From NCBI RefSeq assembly GCF_900115675.1, contig NZ_FOXI01000003.1, positions 258,767-322,766 on the forward strand: DNA of 64,000 nt. Direction: 5' to 3'. The notes beneath the pieces were generated by a model. The model did no database searches. It worked only from the letters and a program-made list of their open reading frames with translations, and was not told the origin of the DNA. This DNA comes from Halolamina pelagica. GTDB taxonomy: Archaea; Halobacteriota; Halobacteria; Halobacteriales; Haloferacaceae. Shown in pieces: positions 16,492 to 47,038 of this stretch. Both the position numbers and the translations under genes were made by a program. Each line of letters starts with the position of its first letter. Position 1 is the stretch's first letter.

Positions 16492-16502
16492 CCCCGCCGT
16501 CG

Positions 16503-30879: not shown

Positions 30880-31439
30880 CGCCAGAGCTTGAACCGCTCG
30901 GCGTTGCTGGCGTCGTCTGCGTCGTCGTCAGCCTCTGACTCCGGGTCGCCGTCCGTCGGGGCGGGGAGGTTCATCGCCCCTGATCCGTTGCCGGCCTCGA
31001 CGTCGTCGACGTCCGCGTCGCCACGATCGTCGCCGCCGAAGGAGATCCGATCGTCGTTCCCGTTGAACGCCTCCCGGATCCGCTCCCGGGCGGTCTCGGT
31101 GTCGTCGTCGCCGAAGATGATCGCCCGGTTGGTGCCGTCGGTCGTACGGATCTCGTCGGCCATCTGTCCGACCGTCTGTGGGTCATGGCCAGTCTCGCGA
31201 GCAGCCCTCGCAATTCGAGCCTTCCTGATCCCCCAGATGGACCCACGACCGAACACGAGCGCGGCGAAAACGTAGCCCCAGCCTTACGTTGCCCACTCGA
31301 GAATGGCGGAAAGGAGCGGCGCACTGGAAGCGGAGACGTCCATTTCGGCCTGCGTCATGAAGAAGACGCCCGCCCCAGCGACGGCGGCGAGGATGAACAC
31401 CACTGCCAAAAACGAGGGGGGAGAGGGATGGACTTCCAA
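30843..31439 (-). pseudogene. Membrane protein split by in-frame TAA
   Basis: A single frame from TTG 31439: LEVHPSPPSFLAVVFILAAV, ...GAGVFFMTQAEMDVSA... ending ILEWAT, then TAA (31284-31286), then GWGYVFAALVFGRGSIWGIR in the same frame and on through KARIARAARETGHDPQTV to an acidic Asp/Glu-rich C-terminus ending RPDSGRTT. Two hydrophobic segments fall on either side of the stop. A TAC/TAT-to-TAA change would explain it. Without the stop the protein would be ~198 aa. An internal start at GTG/ATG ~31253-31256 could still give the C-terminal part. Confidence 0.55.
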
Positions 31440-31685
31440 CCGCCTCTGACAAGTGTGCTGGAAGTCAAGAGAGTATAATAAGTGTAGGTACCAGTAGGTG
31501 TTGCTTGGTAGGCAAGGAGATTCAAGAGGTAGAGAAAATAACTCGCTCGTCTGGTCCGCTCCCGCCAGCCACGAGTGAACCGGAAACGGTGTAGACGTGA
31601 TCGAAACCCGCCCCTCCCACTCCTTCGGAATCGGCTCGTCCGAACGCGCACTCGTCGCGTCCCCCTTGCTAACAATCGTCGAGAA
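31440..31685. other. Gap with no gene seen
   Basis: 246 bp between the viral-like block and the histidine kinase stop. AT-rich around 31465-31550, GC-rich after. No coding pattern seen. Confidence 0.45.
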
Positions 31686-32738
31686 TCAACTGAGGAAGTC
31701 GATACCGGTGATTTCGAACCGTGCACCGCCGGTTTGCGCGTCCGTAGCGACGATGTCCCAGCCGTGGGCGTTGACGATGGTCCGGACGACCGAGAGCCCG
31801 TACCCGTGACCGTCCTCCCTCGTGGTGAACCCGTGATCGAAGACCTCCCCTCTGTGTTCGCTGGTGATCCCCGGTCCGTCGTCCTCGACATAGAACCCGG
31901 TTTCGAGCGGGCCGACACGAACTCCCACGTCGTCCCCCCCGTGCTCCACGGCGTTTCGGAAGAGGTTCTCGAACAACTCACGGAGCCTGTCGGGATCACT
32001 GCTTACCGCTCCGACGGTCTCGTAGTCGAGGGTCGCGCGGGAGTCGGTGGGGAGGCTCTGCCAGGCCGTTTCGATGACGTTCCCGATGTCAGTCGGCTCC
32101 GGGTCGCTGACGACGTTGCCCTGTCGTGCCACACGGAGCAGATCCTCGACGAGCCGTGCCATCCTGTCGGTCGTCTCGCTGATCGTCTCGAGATGCTCCC
32201 CGTCGCCGGTCTCCTGGTACAGAGCCAGGTTCCCCTCGATAACGTTCAACGGGTTTCGGAGGTCGTGCGCGAGGATGTCGGTGAACTCCTTGAGGCGGTC
32301 GTTCTGTCGTTCCAGCATCCGCTCGTACTCCTTCGTCGTCGTCGTGTCCCGACTGATCGCCGCGTATCCGTGACCCGGCTCGTTCCACAGGGGCGACAAC
32401 GTCAGCGTTCCCCAAAAGACGGATTCGTCCGCCCGTCGGTGCCAGTGTTCGAACTCCATCGTCTCCGCCTTCGGCCCTTCGAAGAACTCCTCGGAGAGCG
32501 AGTCGGACTCCCCACCCTCCTCGTCGGCGAACAACACTCCCACGTGCTGGTCGAGGACCTCCTCCGCCTCGTGTCCGTAGAGCGCTTTCGCCGGGGCAGG
32601 CCACGTGACGATATTTCCGCCGGGATCGAGCATGAAGATCGCGTGGGTAGAAGCGTTTTCAATGAGCTGACGAGCGACAGTTCCTCCCGATCCGGACCGA
32701 TCGTTCGGCGAACCTGAAGAACCGAGAGTGTCCGTCAT
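31686..32738 (-). CDS. PAS-domain sensor histidine kinase
   Basis: 350 aa, soluble. PAS domain ~20-135 (HAIFMLDPGGNIVTWPAPAK, ...YAAISRDTTTTKEYERML). Phospho-acceptor helix with His158 in LAHDLRNPLNVIEG. ATP lid: N box NLFRNAVEHGG, G1 VEDDGPGI, F/G2 GHGYGLSVVRTIV, then AHGWDIVATDAQTGGARFE. No membrane segment and no receiver domain; no response regulator is adjacent, as is common in haloarchaea. The 3' ~90 bp are nearly duplicated at 34,079-34,175. A 12-bp palindrome lies directly before the ATG. Confidence 0.9.
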   Translation of the reverse strand: MTDTLGSSGSPNDRSGSGGTVARQLIENASTHAIFMLDPGGNIVTWPAPAKALYGHEAEEVLDQHVGVLFADEEGGESDSLSEEFFEGPKAETMEFEHWHRRADESVFWGTLTLSPLWNEPGHGYAAISRDTTTTKEYERMLERQNDRLKEFTDILAHDLRNPLNVIEGNLALYQETGDGEHLETISETTDRMARLVEDLLRVARQGNVVSDPEPTDIGNVIETAWQSLPTDSRATLDYETVGAVSSDPDRLRELFENLFRNAVEHGGDDVGVRVGPLETGFYVEDDGPGITSEHRGEVFDHGFTTREDGHGYGLSVVRTIVNAHGWDIVATDAQTGGARFEITGIDFLS

Positions 32739-32740
32739 AC

Positions 32741-32752
32741 GCGGATATCCGC
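32741..32752. promoter_or_regulatory. 12-bp palindrome at the kinase start
   Basis: GCGGATATCCGC is perfectly self-complementary and lies 2 bp upstream of the kinase ATG. It may be an operator or a chance palindrome. Confidence 0.35.
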
Positions 32753-32826
32753 CCCCGTTCTAGAACCCTTTCGGGATGGTCTACCAGGGGGTTGAAACTA
32801 GCCCCGCCGGTGCGGGTATCCGAGCG

Positions 32827-33006
32827 TCAATCCGCCAGCTCGACAACCATGATCTCCATATCCGACGCCGTCCCGTCGGTACGATACTCCCACGTACCTC
32901 GCGGGTCGATGTCGTTTTCGAGAGCGGAGAGAAGCACCCGGCTGAGCGCCTCCTCGAAGTCTTCTGTACTCGACATCTCGCCGTCGGAAGTGAAGTCGAT
33001 TGTCAT
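32827..33006 (-). CDS. Small acidic haloarchaeal protein
   Basis: 59 aa: MTIDFTSDGEMSSTEDFEEA, ...LLSALENDIDPRGTWEYRTD... ending MEIMVVELAD. A helix followed by WEYRTDG and a final strand resembles small haloarchaeal proteins with a conserved WxxR-type motif found near regulators; I have no firm family name. ATG 33006 is preferred because the upstream extension in the same frame is Cys/Ser/Pro-rich. Confidence 0.5.
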   Translation of the reverse strand: MTIDFTSDGEMSSTEDFEEALSRVLLSALENDIDPRGTWEYRTDGTASDMEIMVVELAD

Positions 33007-33222
33007 GGTGGGAGCCACACTCGACTGCGGAACGACGCTACTGGGACTGTGTGATCCGTCACACAAACAGTGGAGGCCGCAGTCGTGTGCCTCCACACGA
33101 TAGAGTACGCCCCCGCACGGGAAACACTACCGAAAAGCATGGCACACCATGTCCAGAAATAGCCGGGAAGACAGGCTCTACCAAGTCTTTAACGGAGGTG
33201 CGACAGAACAAACGACTATCTA

Positions 33223-33879
33223 ATGAGTGTCATCGTCGAGCTAACTATTCCATCTGCGGCGTTCGAGCTAGGACGGATCCTCCGGGTCAAAGGAGCGACC
33301 CAACTCACACTCGAAACGATGGTGCCGCTGGGCGGGAAGCCCACACCGTTCGTTCGGATCCGGAACGACGCACGGGAGACGTTCGAGCGCTCCGTCCGCG
33401 AACACCCGTCGGTGAACGAGATCAACCTCGTCAATACACACGACGACGAATCGTTGTACGCACTGAATTGGGAGCCGTCCGATAGCTCGCTGTTACGACG
33501 GATTCTTGATCTTGACGCGGCGCTGCTGGGCGCAACCGCAACTGCCGACACGTGGGGGCTCGAACTCAGGTTCCCGACACACGCGGCGCTCTCGACGTTC
33601 CAGGACTACTATCTCGAGGAGGACATCGAAGTGTCCATCGAGCGCATCTACAATCTCACGAAACCCGATGCCGGCCCCTGGTACGGATTGACGGGCCCCC
33701 AGCGTGAAACGCTCACCTACGCCGTGGAGACCGGCTACTATTCGCTCCCGCGCCAGATCTCGACTCAGGAGCTCGCAAGTACGTTCGACATCTCGGATCA
33801 GGCCGTAACCGAACGCCTCCGGCGCGGGATCTCCACCCTGGTACTGAACACGCTGTTGATCGACGAGAAGGAGGACTGA
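33223..33879 (+). CDS. Bat-type HTH-10 transcriptional regulator
   Basis: 218 aa. N-terminal ~155 residues form the bacterio-opsin-activator-like sensor module (MSVIVELTIPSAAFELGRIL ...). The C-terminal HTH-10 domain reads LTGPQRETLTYAVETGYYSL, PRQISTQELASTFDISDQAV and TERLRRGISTLVLNTLL. Such proteins are typical haloarchaeal regulators of redox, light or metabolism genes; target unknown. A TATA-like TCTTTAACG lies ~35 bp upstream. Confidence 0.88.
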   Translation: MSVIVELTIPSAAFELGRILRVKGATQLTLETMVPLGGKPTPFVRIRNDARETFERSVREHPSVNEINLVNTHDDESLYALNWEPSDSSLLRRILDLDAALLGATATADTWGLELRFPTHAALSTFQDYYLEEDIEVSIERIYNLTKPDAGPWYGLTGPQRETLTYAVETGYYSLPRQISTQELASTFDISDQAVTERLRRGISTLVLNTLLIDEKED

Positions 33880-33997
33880 CGCCGACGTCCTCTGCCGGAC
33901 GGATGGTGAGAGAACGATCCCCCGCGAAACCGTCGACGAGTAGCTATCTACACATCCTATAACTAACTTGTTAGGAGGCCCCCCTGATTACCCGTGA

Positions 33998-34175
33998 AAC
34001 GGAGGTGTTCGACCAGGGAGTATCGGCTTACGTGGCGGTTCCGACCGAGCAATCGCCGAAGTGGTGGTGCATTCCCGTCCGTGTTCCGTCGTTCGGACCA
34101 TCGTCAACGCCCACGGCTGGGACACGTTCGCTACGGACGCGCAAACCGGCGGAGCACGGTTCGAATCGCCGGTAC
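33998..34175 (+). pseudogene. Histidine-kinase C-terminal fragment
   Basis: From ~34,079 to 34,175 the DNA is almost identical to the 3' end of the kinase at 31,686-32,738 (in inverted orientation), encoding SVVRTIVNAHGWDTFATDAQ and TGGARFE. Upstream, EVFDQGVSAY (~33,998-34,030) matches the kinase EVFDHGF region in another frame, so this is a frameshifted, truncated remnant. It lies in the 632-bp gap 33,880-34,511, which holds no other convincing gene. Confidence 0.8.
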
Positions 34176-34511
34176 CAACGTTCAAGATCGGTTCGCAAAT
34201 CGGTCCGTGGTACGAGCGTGCTGGGGGCGGGCTGGAAAGCCCCCACAAAAGCACGGGAGATCCGGTTTACGACTGGTGATGCTGTCGTCGTATAAACTTC
34301 CTTACTGACCATCCCCACTCCCCATCTGTTAGCATAACGATAACAATCTCGTGATTACTTTTCAGGAGTACGGTCTCCCGGATCGGGCCCTGGGTGACAC
34401 TGAAAGCATCGGGAGCGGGCGGGTAGCCCTCCCGCATAACGAAGGCGATTACGGCACGCTCGCAGGGAGTATATTTCACGTTAAGACACGCTTCGCGGTC
34501 ACCCTGGGTTC

Positions 34512-34901
34512 ATGACTGAGCAACTGGTGTCGTATCTCGAACGGCGTGCTGGAAGCTACCTCCGTACAGTCGCCGTCTACGACGAGGAATCCTGGGAGAT
34601 CGTGTACCTGCGTGACGACCTCGACAGACGGAGTGCCCGGCAGCAGACGGAGAAGATTTACGGGGGCGTCAAAACGGGACTCGGCCCGAGCGGGCTTTCC
34701 GACGAGATCGGCGAGCGGTACGCGACACTCCAAGTGCGCGACGACGCAGTGCTCCTGAACATGCCGTGGAACGGATCGGAAGGCGCGTTCGTGGACCTGG
34801 AACCGGGGGCTGCCAGCCAATTGACGGGGTTCATCGACGAGTGCTTGAAACATGGCTATCGTGGCACCGTCTCCCTTCCCCGGTCGCCGAACACTGATTA
34901 G
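34512..34901 (+). CDS. Conserved haloarchaeal protein of unknown function
   Basis: 129 aa. Begins MTEQLVSYLERRAGSYLRTV, then YDEESWEIVYLRDDL, QQTEKIYGGVKTGLGPSG, ATLQVRDDAVLLNMP and a C-terminal helix ASQLTGFIDECLKHG. Mixed alpha/beta, no membrane segment. It resembles a widespread haloarchaeal family of regulators-of-output type (possibly DUF7522; not checked). No enzymatic motif seen. Single gene with a promoter-like AT stretch ahead. Confidence 0.55.
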   Translation: MTEQLVSYLERRAGSYLRTVAVYDEESWEIVYLRDDLDRRSARQQTEKIYGGVKTGLGPSGLSDEIGERYATLQVRDDAVLLNMPWNGSEGAFVDLEPGAASQLTGFIDECLKHGYRGTVSLPRSPNTD

Positions 34902-34992
34902 TCCGTCCGTTCTGCTGTCCGGACTTCCGCCACTTCCCGGTCAGCCACCCCGCCGAAACGGCGCTTAGGGGAACAGCGAACGCAGGGGCGGA

Positions 34993-35712
34993 TTACCTGT
35001 CGCGGTCGACGAAGGATTTCGCGAGTTCAGCGGTTGCGCGGCGAAGCCGGTACGAGACCGTCGACCGGGGGAGGTCGAGGTCGGTGGCGAGTTCGTCGAG
35101 GGTGACCTCGCGTGGCGTCTCGAAGTAGCCACGGTCCACCGCTGCCCTGAGAACCTCCTGCTGTTCGGCACGGATCTCGTTCGGGTGGAGGAGGCGGCTC
35201 TCCCACTGATCGACCTCCCGCAAGTGGTTGAACGAGAACGTGGCGCAGTCCGTGAGCCGCCCGCCTACCGCGTCGTAGAGGAGGCCAACGTTCTCGTCGT
35301 CCTGGACGAGGATGTCCCACGTCGCGCTCCGGCCGCTCCGGGTCTGTCTGAACAGCGCCCCCGCCGAGAAGAAAGTCGCCGCAATAAGCGGGACCGCGTC
35401 ACAGCGTGTCACGTCGGAGAGATAGGTGAACGTCGTTCGCTGTCGCCGCTTTTCCTCCAGCAGGCTCGTCCGTCGGTCCCCGTCACAACGCCGATCCGTG
35501 ATCGAGTATCGCTCGATCGAGTCGTCGAGCAGCCGGTCGTCGATCGCGGCCAGCACCTCGGGATCTCCGGTCAGTAGCTCCAGCGCCCACATCTCCGAGG
35601 GATCGAGACACGCATAGAGGGTTTCCGATCGGAGCGATCCGTGCTCGATGAAGAGGTCCGAGTACTCACGACAGCCGGGTTCGTACCTGAGCGTGAAACT
35701 GAACTCGTACAT
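34993..35712 (-). CDS. Bat-type HTH-10 transcriptional regulator
   Basis: 239 aa. N-terminal sensor part starts MYEFSFTLRYEPGCREYSDL and runs to ~175. C-terminal HTH-10: NEIRAEQQEVLRAAVDRGYF, ETPREVTLDELATDLDLPRS, TVSYRLRRATAELAKSF. Same family as the 33,223 gene but with only distant similarity. ATG 35712 is chosen; the 12-residue upstream extension is basic. Regulated genes unknown. Confidence 0.88.
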   Translation of the reverse strand: MYEFSFTLRYEPGCREYSDLFIEHGSLRSETLYACLDPSEMWALELLTGDPEVLAAIDDRLLDDSIERYSITDRRCDGDRRTSLLEEKRRQRTTFTYLSDVTRCDAVPLIAATFFSAGALFRQTRSGRSATWDILVQDDENVGLLYDAVGGRLTDCATFSFNHLREVDQWESRLLHPNEIRAEQQEVLRAAVDRGYFETPREVTLDELATDLDLPRSTVSYRLRRATAELAKSFVDRDR

Positions 35713-35882
35713 GTCGTCGGTCGAGTGTCGCCGTCGAGGTCGGATCACCGACGGTTCGGTTCCCGTGGTGCCCGAGTACGCTTTCGGCCGGTATCACCGT
35801 TCCGCCCCCGACAACTGGCTGCCGACCCGGAGGGCCCGGATTCCGCCCGTACCCTCATCGGGACGTCACTGTGGGAGCGCTG

Positions 35883-36239
35883 TCAGTCATCCATCGCTAC
35901 CTGTCCCCCGTCGCACTCGTCCGACGGTCGGTCGACGGCAACCGAGAAACCCCCGTCCTCGACGGCGATCGCCACGCGCTCGATGTTTCGCTCGTAGACG
36001 CTGCACCGTCCGTATCCCGGCTTGAGGATGACTCGTTCTTCGATCAGTTCTGCACGGGTGAGTACGTCGAGCTTCCGGTACACCGTCGAGCTCGGGATGT
36101 CGCAATCGTCGGCCAACTCAGCGGCGGCTGTCGGCTCCGTGAGCGTGGACAGGATCCTTCGGCTGGTTTCGTCGCTGAGCGCGTCGAGGAGTCTATCGAC
36201 GGGATACGACTCGTCGGATTCGACGTCACGGCTACTCAT
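35883..36239 (-). CDS. ArsR-type winged-helix regulator
   Basis: 118 aa. YPVDRLLDALSDETSRRILS, TLTEPTAAAELADDCDIPSS and TVYRKLDVLTRAELIEERVI give a standard haloarchaeal winged helix. The wing GYGRCSVYERNIERVAIAVE carries one Cys; a second Cys sits at DECDGG in the tail, so redox sensing is possible. Same general type as the 25,268 regulator. No partner gene follows. Confidence 0.8.
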   Translation of the reverse strand: MSSRDVESDESYPVDRLLDALSDETSRRILSTLTEPTAAAELADDCDIPSSTVYRKLDVLTRAELIEERVILKPGYGRCSVYERNIERVAIAVEDGGFSVAVDRPSDECDGGQVAMDD

Positions 36240-36784
36240 GATTCGGCGAGTTGACGTACGTCGACCCTCCCCTCGTGCGGTTCCGGTACGCTGTTCCGTC
36301 GATACCCCCGTCCCGGTTCAGAAGCCGTCTCACCCCTGGAGTTAGGGCACCCGTGAACTAATCGGCCGGGTTGTCGTAGGACAACTTCATTGCGCCGGCG
36401 TTCCTGTGCTGTCGGGCCTTGTCACGGACCAAGCGAAACCACCCGGCGCGAGGCCGGGTCGACGCGGATTCCGTGCCGCTGATGGCCCCGGCGACCCGGT
36501 CGGTGTGACTGTCGGGCTTCGAGACGGGGACCGCCTCCGTCGAGATGAGGGACTGGTTCCGACTCGATTCGTGCCGTGTCGGACGGTCGGCGACCGGGAT
36601 CCGGACTGAGCACGCTGTCAGATCGTCGACGTACCGACCATCCGAGGTAGTCGAGTGACCATCGAGGCTCGACTCGTCCGGATCCCGGACCTGACCGAGC
36701 CGCTGAACGCGCGGAGATGTCGGCAGAAACGTTCTCGAAAACCGATGGACGCGTTCGGGAACCCGCGTAATCGGGAAACGGGAG
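36240..36784. other. 545-bp gap, no gene seen
   Basis: GC-rich with several imperfect inverted repeats around 36,590-36,700 (GGTCGG...CCGACC, CGAGTC...GACTCG types). The only protein-like piece is a minus-strand tail ending at 36358 (AGWFRLVRDKARQHRN...YDNPAD), which may be the end of a lost gene. It separates the degraded island from the sulfide gene cluster. Confidence 0.4.
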
Positions 36785-37960
36785 TTAGTCGTCGGCGACG
36801 GTGCTCTCAGCGGTAGCCGCACAGCGGTTCGGGCCGAGTTCGAGTTCGGTCTCCTCGTCGGCGTCGGCGGGTTCGTACTCGCCGGCGTTGGTCGCGATGA
36901 CCTGTTCGTAGTTCGGCGGCTTCGAGGGGAGGTTCTCGAACATGTGCTCGACGAACTCGTCCTCGGGTAGCCGAAGGATCTCGTTGTTCTCCCAGAGGTA
37001 GCCGACCGTGGAGAACATCGGCTGGCCCGGCGTCACGTCGACGTACTCGCCGTCGTCCGTGACCGAGAAGTGGCCGGGCAGGATCTTCACGTCGTTCGGC
37101 TCGGTCATGATCGTCCGGTGGAGTGTCTCGTACTGGATGCGGGCGCCGTCTCGAGCGTCCGCGTCGGCGAACTGGAGCTCGGTGCGGCCGATGGACTCGA
37201 CGAACAGGGTGTCGCCCGTGAGCAGGGCCTCGTCGTCGACGAGGTAGGAGGTCATGCCCGTCGTGTGTCCGGGCGTGTGGACCGCCTTGATCTCCACGTC
37301 GCCGAGTTCGACGGTGTCGTTCGGCTCGATGGGGTCGAACTCGAACTCGGGCTCCCGCGTCTCGGCGGGTGCGCCGAGGTGGTACGGCACGCCCAGTCGG
37401 TCGGCGAGACGCCGGCCGCCCGAGATGTGGTCCGCGTGAATGTGGGTGTCGAGGATCTTGGTGACTTCCAGCCCCCGCTTCGCGGCGGCGTCGAGGAACT
37501 CGTCGGTCGCACGGGTCACGTCGACGAGCGCGGCCTCGCCGGCCCGCTTCGAGCCGACGAGGTAGCCGAGACAGCCCTTCGACCGCCGCTGGAGCTGGAC
37601 GACGACGAGGTCGTCGTTCTCGGTGGCGATGGGCACCTCGTCGTACACCATGCTCCACGCTTCCATGCCGCCCTCGACGGATTTGGCCTCGTCCGCGTAG
37701 CCCTCCTCTTCGAGGTACGCGGCGAACTTGCCGGCGGAACTCCCCGTGGCACAGATCGTCACGACGGTGTCGTCGTCGCCGATTACGTCGGGGTCGAAGT
37801 CGCCGACGAGTTCGTCGTCGTCGCCGGAGTACTCCACGTTTCGCGCCTCGGCGATATGCCAGTCCTCGAAACTGTCGGGCGATCGTGTGTCGAAGAGGAC
37901 GAACTCCTCGTCCGCGTCGATCATGTCGCGCAACTGTTCTGCCGTGATTGTCTCGACCAT
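36785..37960 (-). CDS. Rhodanese + metallo-beta-lactamase fusion (persulfide dioxygenase-like)
   Basis: 391 aa. Residues 1-~115 are a rhodanese domain with active-site loop VTICATGSSAGK (Cys70). Residues ~118-345 are an ETHE1/glyoxalase-II-type metallo-beta-lactamase: THIHADHISGG (His173, His175, Asp177, His178), HTPGHTTG, LLTGDTLFVESIGR and LPGHF. A C-terminal ~45-residue tail has FVEHMFENLPSKPPNY, seen in persulfide dioxygenases. It probably oxidises glutathione-like or protein persulfide to sulfite, with the rhodanese moving the sulfane sulfur. Divergent from the HTH-rhodanese gene, next to SQR. Confidence 0.88.
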   Translation of the reverse strand: MVETITAEQLRDMIDADEEFVLFDTRSPDSFEDWHIAEARNVEYSGDDDELVGDFDPDVIGDDDTVVTICATGSSAGKFAAYLEEEGYADEAKSVEGGMEAWSMVYDEVPIATENDDLVVVQLQRRSKGCLGYLVGSKRAGEAALVDVTRATDEFLDAAAKRGLEVTKILDTHIHADHISGGRRLADRLGVPYHLGAPAETREPEFEFDPIEPNDTVELGDVEIKAVHTPGHTTGMTSYLVDDEALLTGDTLFVESIGRTELQFADADARDGARIQYETLHRTIMTEPNDVKILPGHFSVTDDGEYVDVTPGQPMFSTVGYLWENNEILRLPEDEFVEHMFENLPSKPPNYEQVIATNAGEYEPADADEETELELGPNRCAATAESTVADD

Positions 37961-38163
37961 CGTCGGTGTATTGCACGATAAGCACACGTATAACCGTTCG
38001 AGCGGTGAGGATAATGTGTCACAAGCACGATCGGGCTCCGTCACCACCGAAAATATCTCCGCTACTCTCGTGTCGTGAGCCGCCCCGAGACACCACAATC
38101 ACCTTTATCCGCGTGCGTAGTGCGCAGTCACCAGTTCAACAACGTCTTTATTACTCCGTGGCG

Positions 38164-38171
38164 CAATATTG
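38164..38171. promoter_or_regulatory. CAATATTG palindrome upstream of the HTH-rhodanese gene
   Basis: An 8-bp palindrome inside GCGCAATATTGTTC lies just before the start at 38180, downstream of a TATA-like CTTTATTAC (38143-38151). A related GAGATATTGTC occurs at 39336-39346 upstream of SQR. The shared ATATTGT core suggests a common binding site. Confidence 0.4.
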
Positions 38172-38179
38172 TTCATCAA

Positions 38180-39268
38180 ATGAAATTCTCCGATGCCGAG
38201 GACGTGCTCGAGGACCTGCCGCCCAGCTCCAAGTTCATCTACAAGGAGTTGACTCGGGAGGGGTCGATGACCCTGAAGGGGATCACTGAAAGGACCCTAT
38301 TGGGGTCGCGGACGGCCCGGTACGGGTTGGAGAAACTCCAGGAGGCGGGGCTAGTCGAGAGTGCGCCCGCCATTCACGACGGCCGACAGACCTGTTACAG
38401 CATCCGGACCCGGTCGATGGGCGACGACCGGACGGGATACCCCGAACGGCTACTCGTAAGCCCGGACGCCGTCCGGGACATGCTGTCGGCGTTCGAGGAC
38501 GACGACCCCGAGTTTCGCCTCGTCGAAGTGTCGGGGACGTACGACGAAGGTCACATCCCGGGTGCGGTGGAACTCGACCCGCAACGAGACTTCAGCGACG
38601 CCGGTGGCCGAACCGTTCCCGACGGGGAACGCCTCGCCTCGATCCTCGGCGAGCGGGGCATCGCGGGCGACAGCACGGTCGTCCTCTATAGCGACGGGGT
38701 CAACGAGTTCGCCGCGTTCGTCTACTGGGTGCTGAAACACTACCGGCACCGCGACGTTCGCCTCCTCGACGGCGGGAAGCAGTACTGGACGGCGAACGAC
38801 TACCGGACGACCGGGCGGGAGCCGGAGGTCACCCCCGTCGAGTACGACGTCCAGCCCCCGAACGATCAGATCCGGGCGTACCGTGACGACGTCCAGGACG
38901 CGCTCTCGACGGACGTCACGCTCGTCGACGTCCGGTCGCCCGAGGAGTACCGTGGGGAGACGAGCGTCCCCGCTCGAGCGTCCGGACACATCCCGCGGAC
39001 GGTCAACGTCGAGTGGACGAGCGTCGTCCAGGAGAGCGGTCGGTTCGAGCACCGGGAGGCGCTCGAACACCCCTTCGTCGAGGCCGGCGTCGACGGGGAC
39101 GAGGAGATCATCCTCTACTGTAACGTCGGCGAACGGTCCGCACTCGTGTGGTTCGCGCTCTCGGAACTCCTCGGCTACCCGCACGTCCGGAACTACGACG
39201 GCTCCTGGAGCGAGTGGGGGAACCTGGTCGACGCTCCCGTCGAGTCCCCCGAGCAGGACCGGAACTGA
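38180..39268 (+). CDS. Winged-helix domain fused to tandem rhodanese (candidate persulfide-responsive regulator)
   Basis: 362 aa. Residues 1-78: winged helix (DLPPSSKFIYKELTREGSMT, RTARYGLEKLQEAGLVES). Residues ~92-215: first rhodanese with VEVSGTYDEGHIPGAVELD but Ser171 in the loop LYSDGVNEF where Cys would sit, as in the inactive half of thiosulfate sulfurtransferases. Residues ~235-350: second rhodanese with VDVRSPEEYRG and active-site Cys314 in LYCNVGERSALVW. A DNA-binding domain joined to a catalytic-looking sulfurtransferase, divergent from a persulfide dioxygenase-like gene and upstream of SQR, suggests regulation by sulfane sulfur. Could instead be an enzyme tethered to DNA. Confidence 0.85.
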   Translation: MKFSDAEDVLEDLPPSSKFIYKELTREGSMTLKGITERTLLGSRTARYGLEKLQEAGLVESAPAIHDGRQTCYSIRTRSMGDDRTGYPERLLVSPDAVRDMLSAFEDDDPEFRLVEVSGTYDEGHIPGAVELDPQRDFSDAGGRTVPDGERLASILGERGIAGDSTVVLYSDGVNEFAAFVYWVLKHYRHRDVRLLDGGKQYWTANDYRTTGREPEVTPVEYDVQPPNDQIRAYRDDVQDALSTDVTLVDVRSPEEYRGETSVPARASGHIPRTVNVEWTSVVQESGRFEHREALEHPFVEAGVDGDEEIILYCNVGERSALVWFALSELLGYPHVRNYDGSWSEWGNLVDAPVESPEQDRN

Positions 39269-39391
39269 GCCCGGTCGCGGACGGGCGGCTCCCGGAAGTT
39301 TTTGTGGCTATCCACCGGATCGACCGCCGGATCGCGAGATATTGTCTTTTCCGAAGGAGACAGACGTTCTTACGGTGTATCTGGAGCCGGT

Positions 39392-40567
39392 ATGGATCAC
39401 ATAGTGGTGCTCGGTGCGGGAGTCGGGGGCGCGATGAGCGCGAACATGCTCGATCGCCGCCTCGACGACGACACACGGATCACCGTCGTCGACAAGAGTA
39501 CGGAACACGCGTATCAACCGTCGTTCTACCTGTTGCCGTTCGGGTACATGGAACCGGAAGACCAGTTCCGTGACGTCCGGGAGATCATGCGCCCGGGCGT
39601 CGAGTTCATCGAGGACGAGGTAACCGGCGTCGATCCCGACGCGAAGACCGTCGACCTGGCGGAGGAGAGCCTCTCCTACGACTACCTGATCGCCGGCCTG
39701 GGCAACCGACTCGCCGCCGAGTCGACGCCGGGGATGATGGACGGGTGGAAGGAAACCGACTCGGTCTTCCCGTTCTACTACTACGAGGCGGCGATGGAGA
39801 TGCGGGAGGAACTGGCAGCGTTCGACGGCGGCACGTTCGTCGTCACCGTCCCGGACACGCCGTTCAAGTGCGGGGGCGCGCCGCTGAAGATGACGATGCT
39901 CGCCGAGGACTACTTCCGGCGGCAGGGGATCCGCGACGACGTCGACGTGGTGATGACCAAGCCCGGCGACGCCGTCTTCGGCGTCTCCCCGTACCGCGAG
40001 AAACTGGAGGAGATCTGGGCGGACCGGGACATCGAGTTCCGCGGCGGCTTCACCGTCGAGGAGGTCGACTACGAGGCCCAGGAGATCCACTCGGAGGAGG
40101 GTGAAACCCAGGAGTACGACTTCTACGCGCCCGTCCCGCCGCAGTACGGCCAGCCGGCGCTGACCGAGGGCTCGCCGCTGACCGAGGGCGACGACGAACA
40201 CGGCGGCGAGTACGTCACCGTCGACGAGAACACGATGCAACACACCGAGTACCCCGACGTCTTCGGGATCGGTGACGCCGGCGACACGCCGAACGCGAAG
40301 ACCGCGGCCGCGGCCCGGAAGCAGGCCCACGTCGTCGTCGACAACCTCGTCGCCCACATGAACGACGGTCGGATGACCGCCGCCTACCACGGCTACGCCG
40401 CCTGCCCCCTGCTGACGAAGAAGGGGAAGGCGATGATCGCCGAGTTCGACTACGAGGACAGCATCTCGGCGCCGGTCGAGAGCCGGGCGAACTGGATACT
40501 GGACGTCAACGTCCTCCCGAGCGTCTACTGGAACGCGTGGCTCCGCGGGTACGACCCCCTCCCCTAA
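39392..40567 (+). CDS. Sulfide:quinone oxidoreductase-like flavoprotein
   Basis: 391 aa. FAD-binding Rossmann at the N-terminus (VVLGAGVGGAMSANML), HAYQPSFYLLPFG, redox Cys160 in PFKCGGAPLK, second Cys338 in YAACPLLTKKGK, and FGIGDAGDTPNAKTAAAARK for the FAD-binding loop. These two Cys and the C-terminal amphipathic end (NVLPSVYWNAWLRGY) fit SQR, which oxidises sulfide and passes electrons to the membrane quinone. Followed immediately (2 bp) by the DUF1641 gene. Confidence 0.9.
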   Translation: MDHIVVLGAGVGGAMSANMLDRRLDDDTRITVVDKSTEHAYQPSFYLLPFGYMEPEDQFRDVREIMRPGVEFIEDEVTGVDPDAKTVDLAEESLSYDYLIAGLGNRLAAESTPGMMDGWKETDSVFPFYYYEAAMEMREELAAFDGGTFVVTVPDTPFKCGGAPLKMTMLAEDYFRRQGIRDDVDVVMTKPGDAVFGVSPYREKLEEIWADRDIEFRGGFTVEEVDYEAQEIHSEEGETQEYDFYAPVPPQYGQPALTEGSPLTEGDDEHGGEYVTVDENTMQHTEYPDVFGIGDAGDTPNAKTAAAARKQAHVVVDNLVAHMNDGRMTAAYHGYAACPLLTKKGKAMIAEFDYEDSISAPVESRANWILDVNVLPSVYWNAWLRGYDPLP

Positions 40568-40569
40568 CA

Positions 40570-41403
40570 ATGGCGAGCGATGACCACACTGCCGACACGA
40601 CGGTGTCCCTCGAGGACGACAGCGAACTCGCACGCGTCGTCGAGGAGAACGACGCGGAACTGGCCGAGCTGCTCCGGCTCCTGCTGACGGCGGAGGACCT
40701 CGCTGGCGACCTCACGCCAGAGCTCCGTGAGGCCGTCCACGAGAACCGGGAGCCCCTCGCCGAGCTCCGGGTGGCCTTCGAGCGGGAGGAGACGCTGACG
40801 CTCCTCAGAAAAGTCGGCGACGAGACCGACACGCTCGTCGAACTCCTCGACGTCCTCGCGGTGTCGAAGGACCTCACGGACGACCTCGTTCCCGAACTGC
40901 TCGTGGCCGTCCGGGAGAACCGGGAGACGGTCGAGCGACTCCGCGGATCGCTCGAGGACGAGGCGACGCTGATCCTCCTCGAGCGCCTCGGGGACAACGC
41001 CGACACGCTGGCGGAGCTGCTCGACCTCCTCGACGCGACGCACGACCTCGCGACCGAGCTCGTACCGGAGTTGCAGGCGGTCGCACGGGACAACCGGGAC
41101 GTGATCCGGGAGTTCCGGATGGCCGTCGCGGGGTTTACGGACGTGCACGGCGAGCGAGACGTCGACATGTACCAGCTCGGCCGGAACGCCGGCAACATGG
41201 TTGCGACCGTGGAGACGCTCGGCGACCCGAAGGTCACCGCCGCCCTCGACGCCACCGTCGAGGGGTTCGCGCGAGAGGACCCCGAACCGGTCGGCGTCCT
41301 CGGGCTCGTTCGGGCGCTCTTCGACGCCGACGTACGGCGCGCGCTGGGGCGGCTGGTCGCGGCCGCGCGGGCTCTGGGGCGGGCCGACCTCGGCGAGGAC
41401 TGA
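40570..41403 (+). CDS. DUF1641-type helical protein coupled to SQR
   Basis: 277 aa, highly acidic, all-helical with a repeated pattern (LLDVLAVSKDLTDDLVPELL and LLDLLDATHDLATELVPELQ repeat the same unit two or three times). The C-terminal part ends DPEPVGVLGLVRALFDADVR, ...RRALGRLV, typical of DUF1641, which is often next to or fused with SQR or formate dehydrogenase proteins. It may be a membrane-associated partner of SQR. Start ATG lies 2 bp after the SQR stop. Confidence 0.8.
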   Translation: MASDDHTADTTVSLEDDSELARVVEENDAELAELLRLLLTAEDLAGDLTPELREAVHENREPLAELRVAFEREETLTLLRKVGDETDTLVELLDVLAVSKDLTDDLVPELLVAVRENRETVERLRGSLEDEATLILLERLGDNADTLAELLDLLDATHDLATELVPELQAVARDNRDVIREFRMAVAGFTDVHGERDVDMYQLGRNAGNMVATVETLGDPKVTAALDATVEGFAREDPEPVGVLGLVRALFDADVRRALGRLVAAARALGRADLGED

Positions 41404-41520
41404 GCCACGCCCCATCGGTTTACGAAAACAGTGTCGCGTTTCGGGAAACCATCTTTCGGAAGCGAGAAAACAGCTCGTAGGCTCGTCGTTTAACGCCGGC
41501 AGCCCCGAAGACTAGCCGTG

Positions 41521-42210
41521 ATGAGCGAGCGATCGGAGACGGCGGCCGACGGCGTCACGGCACCGGGAATCGGCGACGAGTTCCCCGACCTCACGGTCGA
41601 GACAAGCCGCGGCGAGGTGTCCCTCCCGGACGACTACGAGGGGTCGTGGCTGGTGCTCTTCAGCCACCCGGGAGACTTCACGCCGGTGTGTACCTCCGAG
41701 TTCGTCGCCTTCGAACAGCGCCGGGAGGAGTTCGAGAAACTCGACGCCGAACTGCTCGGCCTGTCAGTGGACCGCGTCCACTCACACATCAAGTGGACCG
41801 AGTGGATCGGCGAGAACCTCGGGGTCGACATCAGTTTCCCGATCATCGCCGACGATCAGGGTACCGTCGCCCGATCGCTCGGGATGATCCACCCGGGCGC
41901 GGGCACCGCGACGGTCCGGAGCGTCTTCGTGGTCGATCCGTCGGGGACCGTCAGACTGGTGTTGACGTACCCGATGGAGATCGGGCGGAACATCGACGAG
42001 ATCCTTCGATCGCTGCGTGCCCTCCAACGGAGTGACCAGGAGGAAGGCGTCGCCGTCCCCGCCGACTGGCCCGAGAACGAGGCCTTCGGTGACCGCGTTC
42101 TCCTCTCCCCGCCCGGGACCGTCGACGAGGCAGAGGCACGGACGGCCGAGGCCGAGGCGACGGAGGGAATGGAAGCGTACGACTGGTGGTTCGTGACCCG
42201 GTCGGAATAA
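41521..42210 (+). CDS. 1-Cys peroxiredoxin (Prx6 type)
   Basis: 229 aa. Thioredoxin fold with SHPGDFTPVCTSEF; the peroxidatic Cys57 is the only cysteine in the protein. Prx6-type continuation GLSVDRVHSHIKWTEWI, ...RSVFVVDPSGTVRLVLTYP and a long C-terminal dimer extension with VLLSPPGT. It reduces peroxides (or persulfides) with an external thiol. Lies 117 bp after the SQR-DUF1641 pair, fitting a sulfide/oxidative-stress context. Confidence 0.9.
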   Translation: MSERSETAADGVTAPGIGDEFPDLTVETSRGEVSLPDDYEGSWLVLFSHPGDFTPVCTSEFVAFEQRREEFEKLDAELLGLSVDRVHSHIKWTEWIGENLGVDISFPIIADDQGTVARSLGMIHPGAGTATVRSVFVVDPSGTVRLVLTYPMEIGRNIDEILRSLRALQRSDQEEGVAVPADWPENEAFGDRVLLSPPGTVDEAEARTAEAEATEGMEAYDWWFVTRSE

Positions 42211-42240
42211 GCCGCCTCTCGGGGGGGCCGGCGTGCCGGT

Positions 42241-42249
42241 AATTTATCT
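42241..42249 (+). promoter_or_regulatory. TATA box of the APC permease gene
   Basis: AATTTATCT lies 30-38 bp before ATG 42279, giving a short or absent leader for the permease-stress-protein pair. Confidence 0.55.
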
Positions 42250-42278
42250 GTCGCCCTTCCCGAGTGACACGAGTAGGC

Positions 42279-43706
42279 ATGGGTACGACCAACGAGGCCG
42301 GTGGGACGAACAGAACCGGCGAGACGCCCGAATCGGCGTCGGCGACGGTGGAAGACGGATCGGCCAGCGTCACCGAGGAGGGGTCGGAGCTCGAACGCTC
42401 GATCGGCCTCGTCGGCGGGCTCTCCATCGGTATCGGGACGATGATCGGCGCGGGCATCTTCGTGTTCCCGGGGCTCGCGGCCGGGCGCGCGGGACCGGCG
42501 GCCGCGGGCTCGTTCGCCATCGGCGCGGTCATCGCGCTGCTGGTCGCGCTGCCCGCCTCCGAACTCGCGACGGCGATGCCGAAATCCGGCGGGGGGTACT
42601 ACTACATCTCGCGTGCGCTCGGGACGCTGCCGGGCGCCGTGGTCGGCATCAGCATCTGGCTGGGGCTGGTGTTCGCGACCGCGTTCTACCTCGTCAGCTT
42701 CGGCAACTACGCCGCCGCGCTGCTCTCGGAGGGCGGCGTGAACCTCGCCGGGCTCCCGATCGTCGACGCGCTGGCGCTGGTGTTCGGCGTCGCCCTCACC
42801 GCGCTCAACCTCGTGGGGACCGAGAACGCGGCGAAACTCCAGAACTACGTCGTCGGGCTGCTGTTGACCATCCTCGTGCTGTTCCTGAGCTACGGCAGCC
42901 TCGACGTGTTGGGGGTGTTCGGCACGGAGAGCACGCCCGAGCAGTTCATGCCGTTCGGGCCGATGCCGATGTTCACGACCGCGGCGCTGGTGTTCACCTC
43001 CTACCTCGGCTTCGCGCAGGTGGCGACGGTCGCCGGCGACATCAAGAACCCCGGTCGGAACCTGCCGCTGGCGATGGTCGGCTCGGTCCTGACCGTGGCC
43101 GTGCTCTACGTGGCCACCATCTTCGTCGCGACCAGCGCGTTCGGGAGCGGTCCCCTCGCGGGGTTCGGCGAGACGGCGATCGTCGAGGTGGCGCGGGCCT
43201 TCTTCGGCGACGCCGGCGCGTTGGCCATCCTGCTCGGCGGGCTGCTCGCGACGGTGTCGAGCGCGAACGCGTCGATCCTCTCCACCTCGCGGGCTGTGTT
43301 CGCGGTGAGCAAGGACGCGCTACTGCCGACGGTCGCGAGCCGCGTGAACCTCCAGTACGGCACGCCCCACGTCGCGCTGTCGATGGCCGGTGGGCCCGTG
43401 CTGGTGCTGATCGCCCTCGGCGAGGTCGAAGTGCTCGCGGAGGTGGCCTCGTTCCTCCACCTGATCATGTACGGGCTGATGTGCGTGGCGCTGATCGTGA
43501 TGCGTCGCGACGAGCCCGAGTGGTACGATCCGGACTTCCGGGTTCCGGCCCATCGACTCGTCGCCGGCGTCGGCGCCCTCGCGAGTTTCGGGCTCATCGC
43601 GTTCATGCAACGCGAATCGCAGATCGTTGGCGTCGCCATCATGCTCGGCGCCGCCGGGTGGTACAAGTACTACGCGGCCGACGTCAAACTCAAGGGGGTG
43701 CTGTAA
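42279..43706 (+). CDS. APC-family amino acid permease
   Basis: 475 aa with a ~45-residue acidic soluble N-terminus and about twelve membrane helices. The first helix carries [20 protein letters not shown], the G-rich substrate/ion site of the APC fold. Also [20 protein letters not shown] and [20 protein letters not shown]. Likely an amino acid or cationic-amine transporter; substrate unknown. The stop directly abuts the ATG of the universal stress protein, a common haloarchaeal pairing. Confidence 0.9.
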
Positions 43707-44462
43707 ATGTCCGAGAACGAATACATGCCGGACCTGACCGTCGAGGGGGAACCACTCGCGATCCGAGAGCCGCCGAAAGTGCTCGTCCCGATCGAAGTGC
43801 TCGAAGGCGAGTCGATCTCGGAGTCGCTCGTCGAGTTCCTCGCCCCCGCCGAGGTGGTGCTGCTTGGCTACCACGTCCTGCCCGACCAGACGTCGACCGA
43901 ACAGGCGAGCCTGCAGTTCGAGGACCGGGCACGGTCAGCCATCGACGAGATCGCCACCGCGTTCCGCGAGCTGGGCGGTGAGGTCGAGACCCGCGTCGCG
44001 TTCACTCACGACCGCGACGCGACCGTCGACCGTGTCGCCGCCGATGCGGCGGCGACGGCCGTTCTGCTCCCCAACCCCGTCGGCGATGTCGAGGAGGTCG
44101 TCGTGCCGATCCGTGGCGCGATCGACGGCGACCGGCTGGCCGACCTCGTGGCGACGCTGCTCGTCGGTCGCGGCGGGTCAGTGACGCTCTGGGGGCTCGA
44201 CATCGACGAGTTCGATACGCAGGCGGCCGTCGACCGTGTTCGTGAGACCCTCACCGGTCGCGGCCTCGCCGCGGAGCGTATCCGGACCGAGGTCACCGAC
44301 GTCGACTCTCCCGTCCGGGCGGTCGTCGACCGCTCGGGCGAGTTCGACGTGATCGTGATGGGCGAGGGCGGCCCCGGGCTGCTCTCCTCGCTGTTCGGCG
44401 ACCCCTCCGAGCGCGTCGCCGAGGGCGCCGTCGCGCCGGTGCTCGTCGTGCGGGACCGGTAG
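43707..44462 (+). CDS. Universal stress protein (tandem UspA)
   Basis: 251 aa with two UspA-like halves. First: KVLVPIEVLEGESISESLVE, ...AEVVLLGYHVLPDQT. Second half keeps the C-terminal ATP-binding-type strand and loop FDVIVMGEGGPGLLSSLFGD, ...RVAEGAVAPVLVVRD. It probably binds to and modulates the permease encoded immediately upstream. Zero-base spacing implies co-translation. Confidence 0.85.
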   Translation: MSENEYMPDLTVEGEPLAIREPPKVLVPIEVLEGESISESLVEFLAPAEVVLLGYHVLPDQTSTEQASLQFEDRARSAIDEIATAFRELGGEVETRVAFTHDRDATVDRVAADAAATAVLLPNPVGDVEEVVVPIRGAIDGDRLADLVATLLVGRGGSVTLWGLDIDEFDTQAAVDRVRETLTGRGLAAERIRTEVTDVDSPVRAVVDRSGEFDVIVMGEGGPGLLSSLFGDPSERVAEGAVAPVLVVRDR

Positions 44463-44465
44463 GAG

Positions 44466-45062
44466 TCAGGAGAGGACCCGACTCCGGTGTGTCCGGACCA
44501 TGTGGACCAGTGCCGAGAGACCGAAGGCGGCGCCGACGAGCAGGCCGGCGACGCTCGGCGACAGGGGGGCGAACGGAGGGAGTTCGACGGTGACCGCGAT
44601 CAGGAACGCGAACGACAGCAGCGAGAGCCCGAGGAAGTAGTCGCTCCAGGGCAGGTCGTTCCCGCTGACGACCTCGAGGTACGCGTCGAGCGTCTCCCCC
44701 TCCTCGGTGAGCCGGACCTCCCCCCGGTTCTGCTCGTACTCGACGACCCCGTACTCGTCCATCTTCGGCAGGTGGGACTGGTACAGCGAGGTGTACACTC
44801 GTTTTCGCTGCTTGTAGGTCACGGCGGCCTCCTCGACGCCGTTCTCCCACGCCGCGATCTCCGAGGCGAGTTCGCGCACCGTCGCTTCGTCCTCCTCGTT
44901 CCGCAGGTAGTACAGCACGAGCCGTCGCCGCCGGTTCGAGAGCAGTTCGAACACGCGATCCCGCGAGAACGACTGTGTCGGCGTCTCCGGACAGTGTTCG
45001 GAGCTCGTTGGCAGTTCGGCTGTGCGATCGGCCGCCTCCTCAACCTGTGTGAGTTGTGCCAT
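44466..45062 (-). CDS. DUF7344-type HTH membrane protein (copy 1)
   Basis: 198 aa. N-terminal winged helix: VFELLSNRRRRLVLYYLRNE, EATVRELASEIAAWENG, VYTSLYQSHLPKMDEYGVVE and RGEVRLTEEGE. Two membrane helices near the C-terminus (DYFLGLSLLSFAFLIAVTVE, VAGLLVGAAFGLSALVHM). Known from haloarchaea as DUF7344; presumed membrane-bound transcriptional regulators. Paralogue of 47,045. Convergent with the stress-protein gene. Confidence 0.82.
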   Translation of the reverse strand: MAQLTQVEEAADRTAELPTSSEHCPETPTQSFSRDRVFELLSNRRRRLVLYYLRNEEDEATVRELASEIAAWENGVEEAAVTYKQRKRVYTSLYQSHLPKMDEYGVVEYEQNRGEVRLTEEGETLDAYLEVVSGNDLPWSDYFLGLSLLSFAFLIAVTVELPPFAPLSPSVAGLLVGAAFGLSALVHMVRTHRSRVLS

Positions 45063-45363
45063 CCTCCTACTCGCCGTACCACCGTGTGACGGCCGGTGGA
45101 CCCAGCGTTATCACCCGACAGACCCGACTGCGAAGGGACGCTGTCGGAGCGCCGGTGCGACCGTTCGAATCTTGTATAGTATGATTCACATGATGCCGTA
45201 TCGTGTTCTTTGTTATCAATTGCACTGAATTTCACCCTGATATTGTTTTTGATGATTCGGGTGAAACAGTGCTTTAGCGACGGACTGTTGTCGAAAAAAC
45301 GTATCAAGGCACCAATACTTATCTACTCGTGGCCATAGGCTACAGTATCGGTGTGGTTCGACC
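45063..45363. other. Divergent gap with promoter of the TrmB-type gene
   Basis: 301 bp between the DUF7344 and TrmB-like starts. AT-rich from ~45,170 to 45,330. TATA-like ATACTTATC at ~45,316-45,324 serves the plus-strand gene. No coding sequence seen. Confidence 0.45.
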
Positions 45364-46140
45364 ATGGACATCCAGGACCCGGTTGAGGACGCGGTCGAAC
45401 TCCTGCAGCAGTTAGGACTGAAGGAGTACGAGGCGAGATGTTTCGTCGCGCTCTCGCAGATTTCGGCCGGGACTGCAAAGGAGGTCGCGGCGATCGCCGA
45501 CGTCCCCAAAACCCGGGTGTACGACTCCGTTCGCGTACTCGAGGCGCGCGGGCTCGCGGAGGTCCAACACGCGAGCCCGCGGCGGTTTCGGGCAGTCAGG
45601 ACCGACGAGGCGGTGTCGACGCTCCGGTCCCAGTACGAGAACCGGATCGACCGGCTGACGGAAGCGCTCGATCGAAGCCGGGACGGGCGGCCCGACCCGG
45701 TCTCGGAGGCACAGGAGGTCTGGTCGCTCGTCGGGAAGGAGGCCATCCGGAGCCGCGTCGATCGGATGATCGCCGACGCCGACGACCGGGTCGTCGTGAT
45801 CGCCGGCCACGAGGACCGCGTGACCGAGGACTTCCTGAGCCCCCTCGGCGGTGTCGACGGCCCGGACGTCGTGGTCAGGGTCCCGACGGACCGCGCCGAG
45901 CGTCGTGTCCGCGAGCACGCGCCCCGCGTGGAGGTGTCGGTCTCGGCGTTCGACTGGGCTGGCGCCGGCGCCGACGCGGACGGCGCGGCTATCGGGACGC
46001 TGCTACTCGCCGACGGCTCCTGCGTACTGGTCAGTACTGTCCTCCCACGGGGGGAGGAGCGGGCGGTGATCGGCACCGCCCGCCACAACGGGCTGGTCGT
46101 GCTCGTGCGCCGACTGATCGAACTCTCGATCGACCGGTAG
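45364..46140 (+). CDS. TrmB-family transcriptional regulator
   Basis: 258 aa. N-terminal TrmB helix-turn-helix: AVELLQQLGLKEYEARCFVA, SAGTAKEVAAIADVPKTRVY and DSVRVLEARGLAEVQHASP, then a coiled-coil (STLRSQYENRIDRLTEAL). C-terminal ~140 residues: VWSLVGKEAIRSRVDRMIAD, phospholipase-D-like effector fold as in many haloarchaeal TrmB-type proteins. No sugar-binding motif evident; ligand unknown. Confidence 0.88.
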   Translation: MDIQDPVEDAVELLQQLGLKEYEARCFVALSQISAGTAKEVAAIADVPKTRVYDSVRVLEARGLAEVQHASPRRFRAVRTDEAVSTLRSQYENRIDRLTEALDRSRDGRPDPVSEAQEVWSLVGKEAIRSRVDRMIADADDRVVVIAGHEDRVTEDFLSPLGGVDGPDVVVRVPTDRAERRVREHAPRVEVSVSAFDWAGAGADADGAAIGTLLLADGSCVLVSTVLPRGEERAVIGTARHNGLVVLVRRLIELSIDR

Positions 46141-46174
46141 GCGGCCGATAACTACGGCGACTACGCCCCCGGGC

Positions 46175-47038
46175 ATGGGTATGAACTCGGTGAGCCGCAT
46201 CGAGCAGGCGACCGGCGTCGCATCGCTCAAAGACCCCGAGTACACCGGCCCGAACCGCTGCTGGCCGTGCACGCTGTCGAACCTCGGTATCGCGGCCGTG
46301 TTGACCGCAGGGGTCGGCGCGGCGGCGACACGGTGGGTTCCGGCCACGGGCGTGGCGGGCCCCGCGGCGGCCACGGTCGCCGCCGTCTCGCTGGCCGTGA
46401 TCTACCTCCGTGGCTACCTCGTCCCGGGGACGCCGAGGCTGACCCGCCGGTACTTCCCGGCGTGGCTGCTGGACTGGTTCGGGAAGGAGCCCGAGCGTCC
46501 GCCTGCGGCCGTCGACCCCCGGGAAACACTGGTGTCGATGGGCGTGCTCGTCGACGATCCCGCTGCCGACGACGTGATGCTTGACTCCGCGTTCGCGGCC
46601 GCGTGGCGCGAGCGCATCGACGCCCACTGGAACGACGAAGACGCGGTCCGCGCGACCATCGGCGACTTCGCCGGCGTCCCCCCCGGAAGCATCGAGTTCG
46701 AGTCCTACCCCGGGATGCTGGTGGCGTACGACGGCCCGGAACGGATCGCGTCCTGGGAGTCCCGGCCGGCCTGCGTGGCCGACGCCGCGGCGGCGGCGAC
46801 GCTCCCGGCGTTCGATCCGGAGTGGGAGCGGCGCCCGCTGGCGGTGCGGGCGGAGCTCCTCGGCGCGCTCCGGCTGTTCGTGGAGGAGTGTCCGGCATGC
46901 GGGGGGCAGGTGTCGCTCCGGACCGAGGTGGTCGAGTCCTGCTGTTCGAGCCGCGACGTTGTCGCCGCGACTTGCGACTCCTGTGGCGCCAGACTGTTCG
47001 AGGTCGACGCCCCGCCGGACCTCCTCGCGGCGGAGTGA
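46175..47038 (+). CDS. Haloarchaeal membrane protein with C-terminal zinc ribbon
   Basis: 287 aa. Begins ...YTGPNRCWPCTLSNLGIAAV with a Cys-x-x-Cys just before two membrane segments (~36-55, ~64-82), then a ~170-residue soluble part (TLPAFDPEWERRPLAVRAEL) and a zinc ribbon ECPACGG...CDSCGARLFEVD near the C-terminus. Additional paired Cys (ESCCSS) lie between. Looks like a conserved haloarchaeal protein; function unknown. An alternative start is ATG 46181, two codons downstream. Confidence 0.7.
   Translation: MGMNSVSRIEQATGVASLKDPEYTGPNRCWPCTLSNLGIAAVLTAGVGAAATRWVPATGVAGPAAATVAAVSLAVIYLRGYLVPGTPRLTRRYFPAWLLDWFGKEPERPPAAVDPRETLVSMGVLVDDPAADDVMLDSAFAAAWRERIDAHWNDEDAVRATIGDFAGVPPGSIEFESYPGMLVAYDGPERIASWESRPACVADAAAAATLPAFDPEWERRPLAVRAELLGALRLFVEECPACGGQVSLRTEVVESCCSSRDVVAATCDSCGARLFEVDAPPDLLAAE

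Follow-up and report, generated by a model that had tools for sequence, protein, structure and literature searches.

Can a single haloarchaeal protein be at once a sulfurtransferase and the regulator of the sulfide-oxidation genes that surround it? The question is raised by an open reading frame found in the window (the whole stretch of DNA analyzed, 64,000 nucleotides), which starts at an ATG at 38180, has a stop codon ending at 39268, and has a product of 362 aa. The frame stays open 5' as far as a GTG at 38075; the alignment of relatives, however, begins at the ATG, which has a TATA-like TCTTTATTAC some 30 bp 5' of it (by eye). A reading made from the sequence alone had placed here a winged helix fused to a tandem rhodanese, next to a divergent dioxygenase-rhodanese gene, an SQR-DUF1641 pair and a 1-Cys peroxiredoxin. 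The fusion is borne out by the reading frame, by Pfam and by a structure model, and the neighbors were found at the expected places. The relevant features are:

36785..37960, minus strand: PDO, a persulfide dioxygenase-like protein made of a rhodanese (the N-terminal part) and a metallo-beta-lactamase, divergent from the fusion (Pfam, profile matches)
38180..39268, plus strand: fusion gene, MarR-like winged helix and tandem rhodanese, 362 aa (reading frame, Pfam, structure match, relatives)
38180..38413, plus strand: winged-helix domain, approximately residues 1-78 (Pfam, PDB profiles, secondary structure of the model)
38393..38395, plus strand: codon of Cys72, second wing strand (alignment of fusions against standalone winged helices)
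38690..38692, plus strand: codon of Ser171, inactive first rhodanese site (sequence, alignment)
38888..39220, plus strand: second rhodanese domain, residues 237-347 (Pfam)
39119..39121, plus strand: codon of the catalytic Cys314, loop CNVGER (sequence, alignment)
39392..40567, plus strand: SQR, a sulfide:quinone oxidoreductase-like protein (Pfam, profile matches)
40570..41403, plus strand: DUF1641 protein (Pfam)
41521..42210, plus strand: PRX, a 1-Cys peroxiredoxin with one Cys in its sequence (Pfam, profile matches)

An amino-acid-permease-like gene (42264-43706) is found 3' of PRX in the window, and a 118-aa HTH protein is encoded near PDO (35883-36239, minus strand), related copies being present in two of the 34 other loci.

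In the AlphaFold2 model of the fusion protein (mean pLDDT 83, pTM 0.73) the N-terminal part consists of helices 4-11, 15-27, 32-39 and 43-55 and wing strands 59-63 and 71-75, followed by a loose linker (residues 78-84, pLDDT below 50). HTH_27 scores 21.8 bits on the whole protein, against a cut-off of 22.2, and 24.8 bits on residues 1-100 alone; the MarR_2 match is under its cut-off. The top PDB profile matches of the winged helix are MarR-type zinc regulators, e.g. ZitR. Full MarR proteins have flanking dimerization helices; these are absent from the model, which has only the four helices and the wing before the linker. The tandem rhodanese spans residues 88-358 and contains PF00581 (Rhodanese) twice (E 1.1e-30), with the TST fold, the nearest structure being Thermus TST 1uar. 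In structural alignment 1uar and CysA2/CysA3 are 43% and 40-41% identical to the fusion, share its fold, and carry a Cys in the second domain only; unlike the fusion, they have no DNA-binding domain and feature the loop CRIAER or CRIGER. Ser171 and Cys314, correctly numbered in the sequence-only reading, are the first and second sites. The first-site residue is Ser in 25 of 35 relatives, Gly in three, Asp in three (four could not be read by pattern), and Gly in 1uar. Ser171 is the ordinary dead N-terminal site of tandem rhodaneses, with no peculiarity.

A search for the architecture and its neighbors, proposed in the sequence-only reading, was run on 391 genomes of the haloarchaeal class. The whole protein matches 376 of them, mostly through standalone sulfurtransferases. 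When only the winged helix is modeled, 390 of 391 genomes match, standalone winged helices being nearly universal; the fusions, at 35 loci of 28 genomes, all score at least 125 bits, and the standalone winged helices at most 105. The number of loci and the score gap indicate that the fusion is not a chance event: it is real and conserved. The 35 loci may be 34, since the intergenic regions of L068 and L036 are identical and both loci lie on one contig of G190 (C3:2-856 and C3:250490-251569); one copy is cut by the contig end, and the pair is either a duplication or assembly redundancy. Named carriers include Natronorubrum bangense, Haloferax profundi and Halolamina species, the closest named fusions, with the winged helix as query, being those of Halolamina pelagica (92% identity) and H. 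rubra (89%), which points to a Halolamina-like haloarchaeon as the host of the window. Three plasmid-borne copies (Salarchaeum, Natronorubrum bangense, Natronosalvus) are annotated merely as rhodanese-like domain-containing protein. The fusion tree was built without L062 and L068, which are truncated or have an internal stop, and the rows of L002 and L033, a second and more distant paralogue, served as outgroup only; a single origin of the fusions is not demonstrated, since the tree requires two label changes.

The supposed link to sulfide oxidation holds well beyond the window. At least one of PDO, SQR, DUF1641 and PRX lies within the flanks fetched around the fusion in 32 of the 35 loci, and fusion homologues are thus not consistently found without sulfide-oxidation genes. 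Gene by gene, the fetched flanks contain PDO in 31 loci, SQR in 30, DUF1641 in 30 and PRX in 24. None of the four is found at L060 and L061, both complete fusion copies, and at L062, which carries an internal stop and, as L065, begins at a contig edge; in L037 SQR resides about 108 kb away on the same contig. An SQR orthologue is present in all 28 genomes with the fusion vs. 13 of 363 without it. Gene order varies by clade, PDO being either divergent or co-oriented and 3' of the fusion, and SQR inverted in L044 and L045, so that the linkage does not merely reflect one frozen block. At the 13 SQR loci without fusion, a standalone sulfurtransferase is found in the SQR neighborhood in 10; these loci (L102-L114) mostly contain tandem SQR-like genes with a standalone CRIGER sulfurtransferase nearby. 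A TauE-like exporter recurs at 13 fusion loci and a CydA/CydB-like pair at 12. The CydA/CydB-like genes lie 3' of PRX in relatives (L036, L042, L043 and others); at L060, the second copy of G212, the fusion paralogue is divergent from such a pair, with no strong palindrome in between.

The palindrome GCAATWATTGC was found de novo in pdo, sqr and fusion promoters. The EM model allowed each sequence either a single palindromic site or none, and was run on 49 promoters from 21 loci representative of the 35, PRX promoters being omitted. At width 13 the model reached a log-likelihood of 154, and at width 17 one of 196, against maxima of 19.5 and 28.7 in eight local-block shuffles each; the rows are phylogenetically related and not independent, and the shuffles ignore kinship. 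An earlier EM, allowing any number of sites per sequence, had drifted into generic A+T-rich stretches and was replaced. A short TATTGTAC-like element, seen by eye near the start codons of pdo and fusion, was not kept as a separate motif, its fusion-side copy overlapping the final palindrome site. The exact pattern MAATWATTK, picked after inspection, has 26 occurrences in promoters of the four types (29,551 bases in all) vs. seven elsewhere in these loci (506,810 bases). In a held-out test, with a matrix trained on 10 clade-B loci, the best site of the SQR promoter comes first, second or third out of 11,000-17,000 positions at 13 of the 14 other loci; the exception is L065, where five positions score higher. 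The median score is 14.75 bits for the 14 fusion-linked sqr promoters vs. 1.0 for 13 sqr loci without fusion (Mann-Whitney p 7e-6), though the latter carry a more distant SQR (55-59% identity), and lineage could explain the missing motif. On this matrix the sqr promoter of the window scores 7.9 bits. In Salarchaeum (G010), where SQR is unlinked, a weak site (8.5 bits) is found at -100. Strong sites are present at SQR and at neither PDO nor fusion in L064, L066 and L067, and are missing anywhere in L065 and in L060 and L061. The conserved palindrome, located in the right promoters, gives indirect support to DNA binding by the fusion.

Genome-wide, the pattern RMAATWATTKY occurs on average (means calculated by hand) 4.2 times per genome without fusion (2.8 for the reversed control) vs. 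6.0 times with fusion (2.7); it is not exclusive to fusion genomes, since it also occurs without the fusion, and exact-pattern counts were dropped as a discriminator, giving no clean split. Three copies reside in the genome of the window, none of them in the sulfide locus. Strong palindromes were also noticed 3' of the fusion start in L043 (7215), L042 (7533) and L037 (5177), nearby genes being of uncertain identity; a possible extra target 5-9 kb 3' of the fusion in some relatives was not retained, the adjoining genes being unrelated or uncertain.

Sites and promoter elements of the window are as follows:

37987..38003, minus strand: BRE/TATA-like stretch of the PDO promoter (by eye)
38007..38019, no strand: PDO-proximal site GAGGATAATGTGT, 1.1 bits (matrix score), just upstream of the PDO BRE/TATA-like stretch
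38048..38060, no strand: candidate operator CGAAAATATCTCC, 9.7 bits (matrix score), 41 bp from the PDO-proximal site
38162..38174, no strand: candidate operator CGCAATATTGTTC, 9.2 bits (matrix score), between the TATA-like box of the fusion and its ATG
39294..39306, no strand: candidate operator GGAAGTTTTTGTG, at -98 of SQR, 9.8 bits (matrix score), the best in window positions 30001-47000
39335..39347, no strand: second copy CGAGATATTGTCT, at -57 of SQR, 4.8 bits (matrix score), 41 bp from the first

The candidate operators of the window are weak (9.2-9.8 bits vs. 13-17 in many relatives), and the PDO-proximal position reaches 13-14 bits in five of 17 divergent regions. Their arrangement is conserved. 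Upstream of sqr, the main site begins near -98 and is accompanied by a copy near -57, in most cases of lower score; the two are 40-42 bp apart in 23 of 28 promoters vs. a maximum of eight in 500 shuffles; both the -98 position and the search range were fixed beforehand. The best site of the SQR promoter is found at about -219, rather than -98, in L040 and L041; in L044 and L045, where the gene is inverted, a site is still present some 90 bp upstream of SQR. In 16 of the 17 divergent pdo/fusion regions (L063 is the misfit), a site scoring among the best four is located 43-46 bp away from the start codon of pdo. The distance to the partner site is 41-42 bp in Halolamina, 51-53 bp in Natrinema/Natronomonas-type loci and in L039, and 62-64 bp in L044, L045, L046, L047 and L058. 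These spacing classes are about one helical turn apart, and would fit two dimers bound to the same face of the helix.

The fusion protein may be read as a one-component transcription regulator of haloarchaeal pdo, sqr-DUF1641 and often prx, the winged helix of which would bind GCAATWATTGC, usually at two copies in helical phase. When persulfide builds up, the fused rhodanese would load sulfane sulfur onto Cys314, and the state of this residue would be passed to the DNA-binding part, either directly or via Cys72. The sequence-only reading had suggested that the reactive Cys of a rhodanese could itself be the sensor. The fusion is probably, judging from gene neighborhood and promoters, the local regulator of haloarchaeal sulfide oxidation; persulfide sensing is the best-supported hypothesis, rather than a result, and the whole reading, a one-component regulator sensing persulfide through its rhodanese, is in our opinion somewhat more likely than not. 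If true, it would explain how haloarchaea control sulfide oxidation, and add an enzyme-built sensor to the known sulfane-sulfur regulators.

The sign of the regulation is where a competing reading fares best. The fusion could be a repressor of pdo and sqr released upon persulfidation, as H2S and polysulfides inactivate BigR (PMC5823870), and a protein bound at the pdo site, close to the BRE, could hinder TFB; this reading differs from the one-component regulator outlined above in sign only. In Haloferax volcanii, however, the place of the OxsR motif relative to BRE/TATA tracks the sign of regulation, motifs 5' of these elements being associated with activation and those 3' with repression, according to the part of PMC9426492 drawn upon. 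The sqr sites at -98 and about -57 are upstream of the TATA region, and at pdo a BRE/TATA-like GCTCGAA..TTATA or TTAATA closely follows the site (both by eye). Repression of pdo and sqr is judged rather unlikely. By the same rule of position, the proposed persulfide-sensing regulator would most likely activate pdo and sqr, and in the clade of the window would repress its own gene, the site at 38162..38174, between TATA and ATG, being a candidate for the autorepression type.

Two cysteines may be involved in sensing. Neither Cys314 nor the loop-end Arg319 varies in two fusion alignments, one covering 26 of the 35 loci and the other the window protein with 26 of the 27 named fusions (L119, 418 aa with no stop near the family end, was omitted from the latter). 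The catalytic Cys resides in the second domain together with the loop-end Arg, the role of which, as that of Thr or Ser at the same position, is taken from PMC8533005. The residue after Cys314 is His in 17, Asn in 13 and Gly in three of 33 readable fusions (two of the 35 being truncated). Arg at this place, a feature of the standalone relatives which is not obligatory for rhodaneses, is missing in all 33; it is found, as CRIGER, in all 14 standalone haloarchaeal enzymes compared. An invariant Cys314 within a loop altered specifically in the fusions would fit the rhodanese being the sensor. Cys72 was overlooked in the sequence-only reading; of the 35 fusion rows 33 carry it, and all 53 standalone winged helices examined lack it. 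It is also present in all 27 named fusions, a set biased toward it, the Cys motif being one of the two patterns used for retrieval. Taken together, the pattern of Cys314 and Cys72 would fit a sensor having one or two working cysteines. A bolder version, tentative and in our judgment unlikely, is a sulfur relay on DNA, in which Cys314 would load sulfane sulfur and hand it to Cys72 in the wing, so that catalytic turnover, rather than a bound ligand, would set promoter output; if true, the fusion would be a dedicated archaeal persulfide regulator having a working enzyme as sensor.

The distribution of Cys72 may also be read as evidence that the winged helix regulates with Cys72, or another ligand, as sensor, the rhodanese being a passenger enzyme which removes part of the signal or converts persulfide and sulfite to thiosulfate. 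A single winged-helix protein of the TrmB type, OxsR, is a thiol-based regulator in H. volcanii (PMC9426492), and the fused rhodanese retains the Cys and the loop-end Arg on which thiosulfate cleavage by RDL2 depends, as far as reported in the part of PMC8533005 used. Cys72 is nevertheless missing in L061 and displaced in L065, and the altered catalytic loop common to the fusions looks as if the rhodanese had been retuned; a passenger role is in our judgment unlikely. Still less probable is that the winged helix has lost specific DNA binding, the fusion being an ordinary sulfurtransferase and the palindrome the target of another regulator: the pattern does occur in genomes without fusion, and the ubiquitous standalone winged helices of the same family might bind similar DNA, but their own promoters reach 13 bits in none of 53 cases vs. 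16 of 27 named fusions (the matrix having been trained on fusion loci), other DNA-binding families recur at no more than three of the 35 fusion loci, and the winged-helix residues L41, R44 and T45 do not vary in the alignment covering 26 of the 35 fusions.

As a persulfide sensor, the fusion would be a variant among the known thiol-based sulfane-sulfur regulators. The sequence-only reading was wrong in holding that known sensors use folds other than the winged helix, BigR being an ArsR-type winged helix. CstR is persulfide-responsive, and the cst operon under its control encodes SQR, PDO-rhodanese and TauE, sulfide-oxidation genes of the same kinds as those of the fusion locus; CstR differs from the fusion in being bacterial, of the CsoR-type fold, and devoid of a fused rhodanese. 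Sulfane-sulfur sensors of the MarR family have also been published (PMC11211675). BigR controls, in response to sulfide and polysulfides, the gene of the fused sulfurtransferase-dioxygenase Blh (ST/SDO; PMC5823870), a task similar to that proposed here. BigR is a repressor using its own Cys and, unlike the fusion, has no enzyme domain. OxsR shares with the fusion a haloarchaeal single winged helix, and acts by thiol chemistry as the fusion is proposed to do, but, as described in the part of PMC9426492 drawn upon, is without rhodanese, recognizes a CG-rich motif and responds to hypochlorite. ChrB and ArsR-rhodanese fusions (PMC3817168) are regulators with a rhodanese-like domain; they differ in serving chromate or arsenic resistance and in having one rhodanese module, and the part of that source consulted mentions no sulfide locus. 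Neither an archaeal persulfide-responsive regulator nor a regulator with a tandem rhodanese was found among titles and beginnings of abstracts of the open-access literature, which is weak evidence. Variation within the family was observed in L061, the second copy of G029, located away from sulfide genes: Cys72 is lost (DRRKNLY) and the catalytic loop reads CHVGWR, changes which may mark an altered function.
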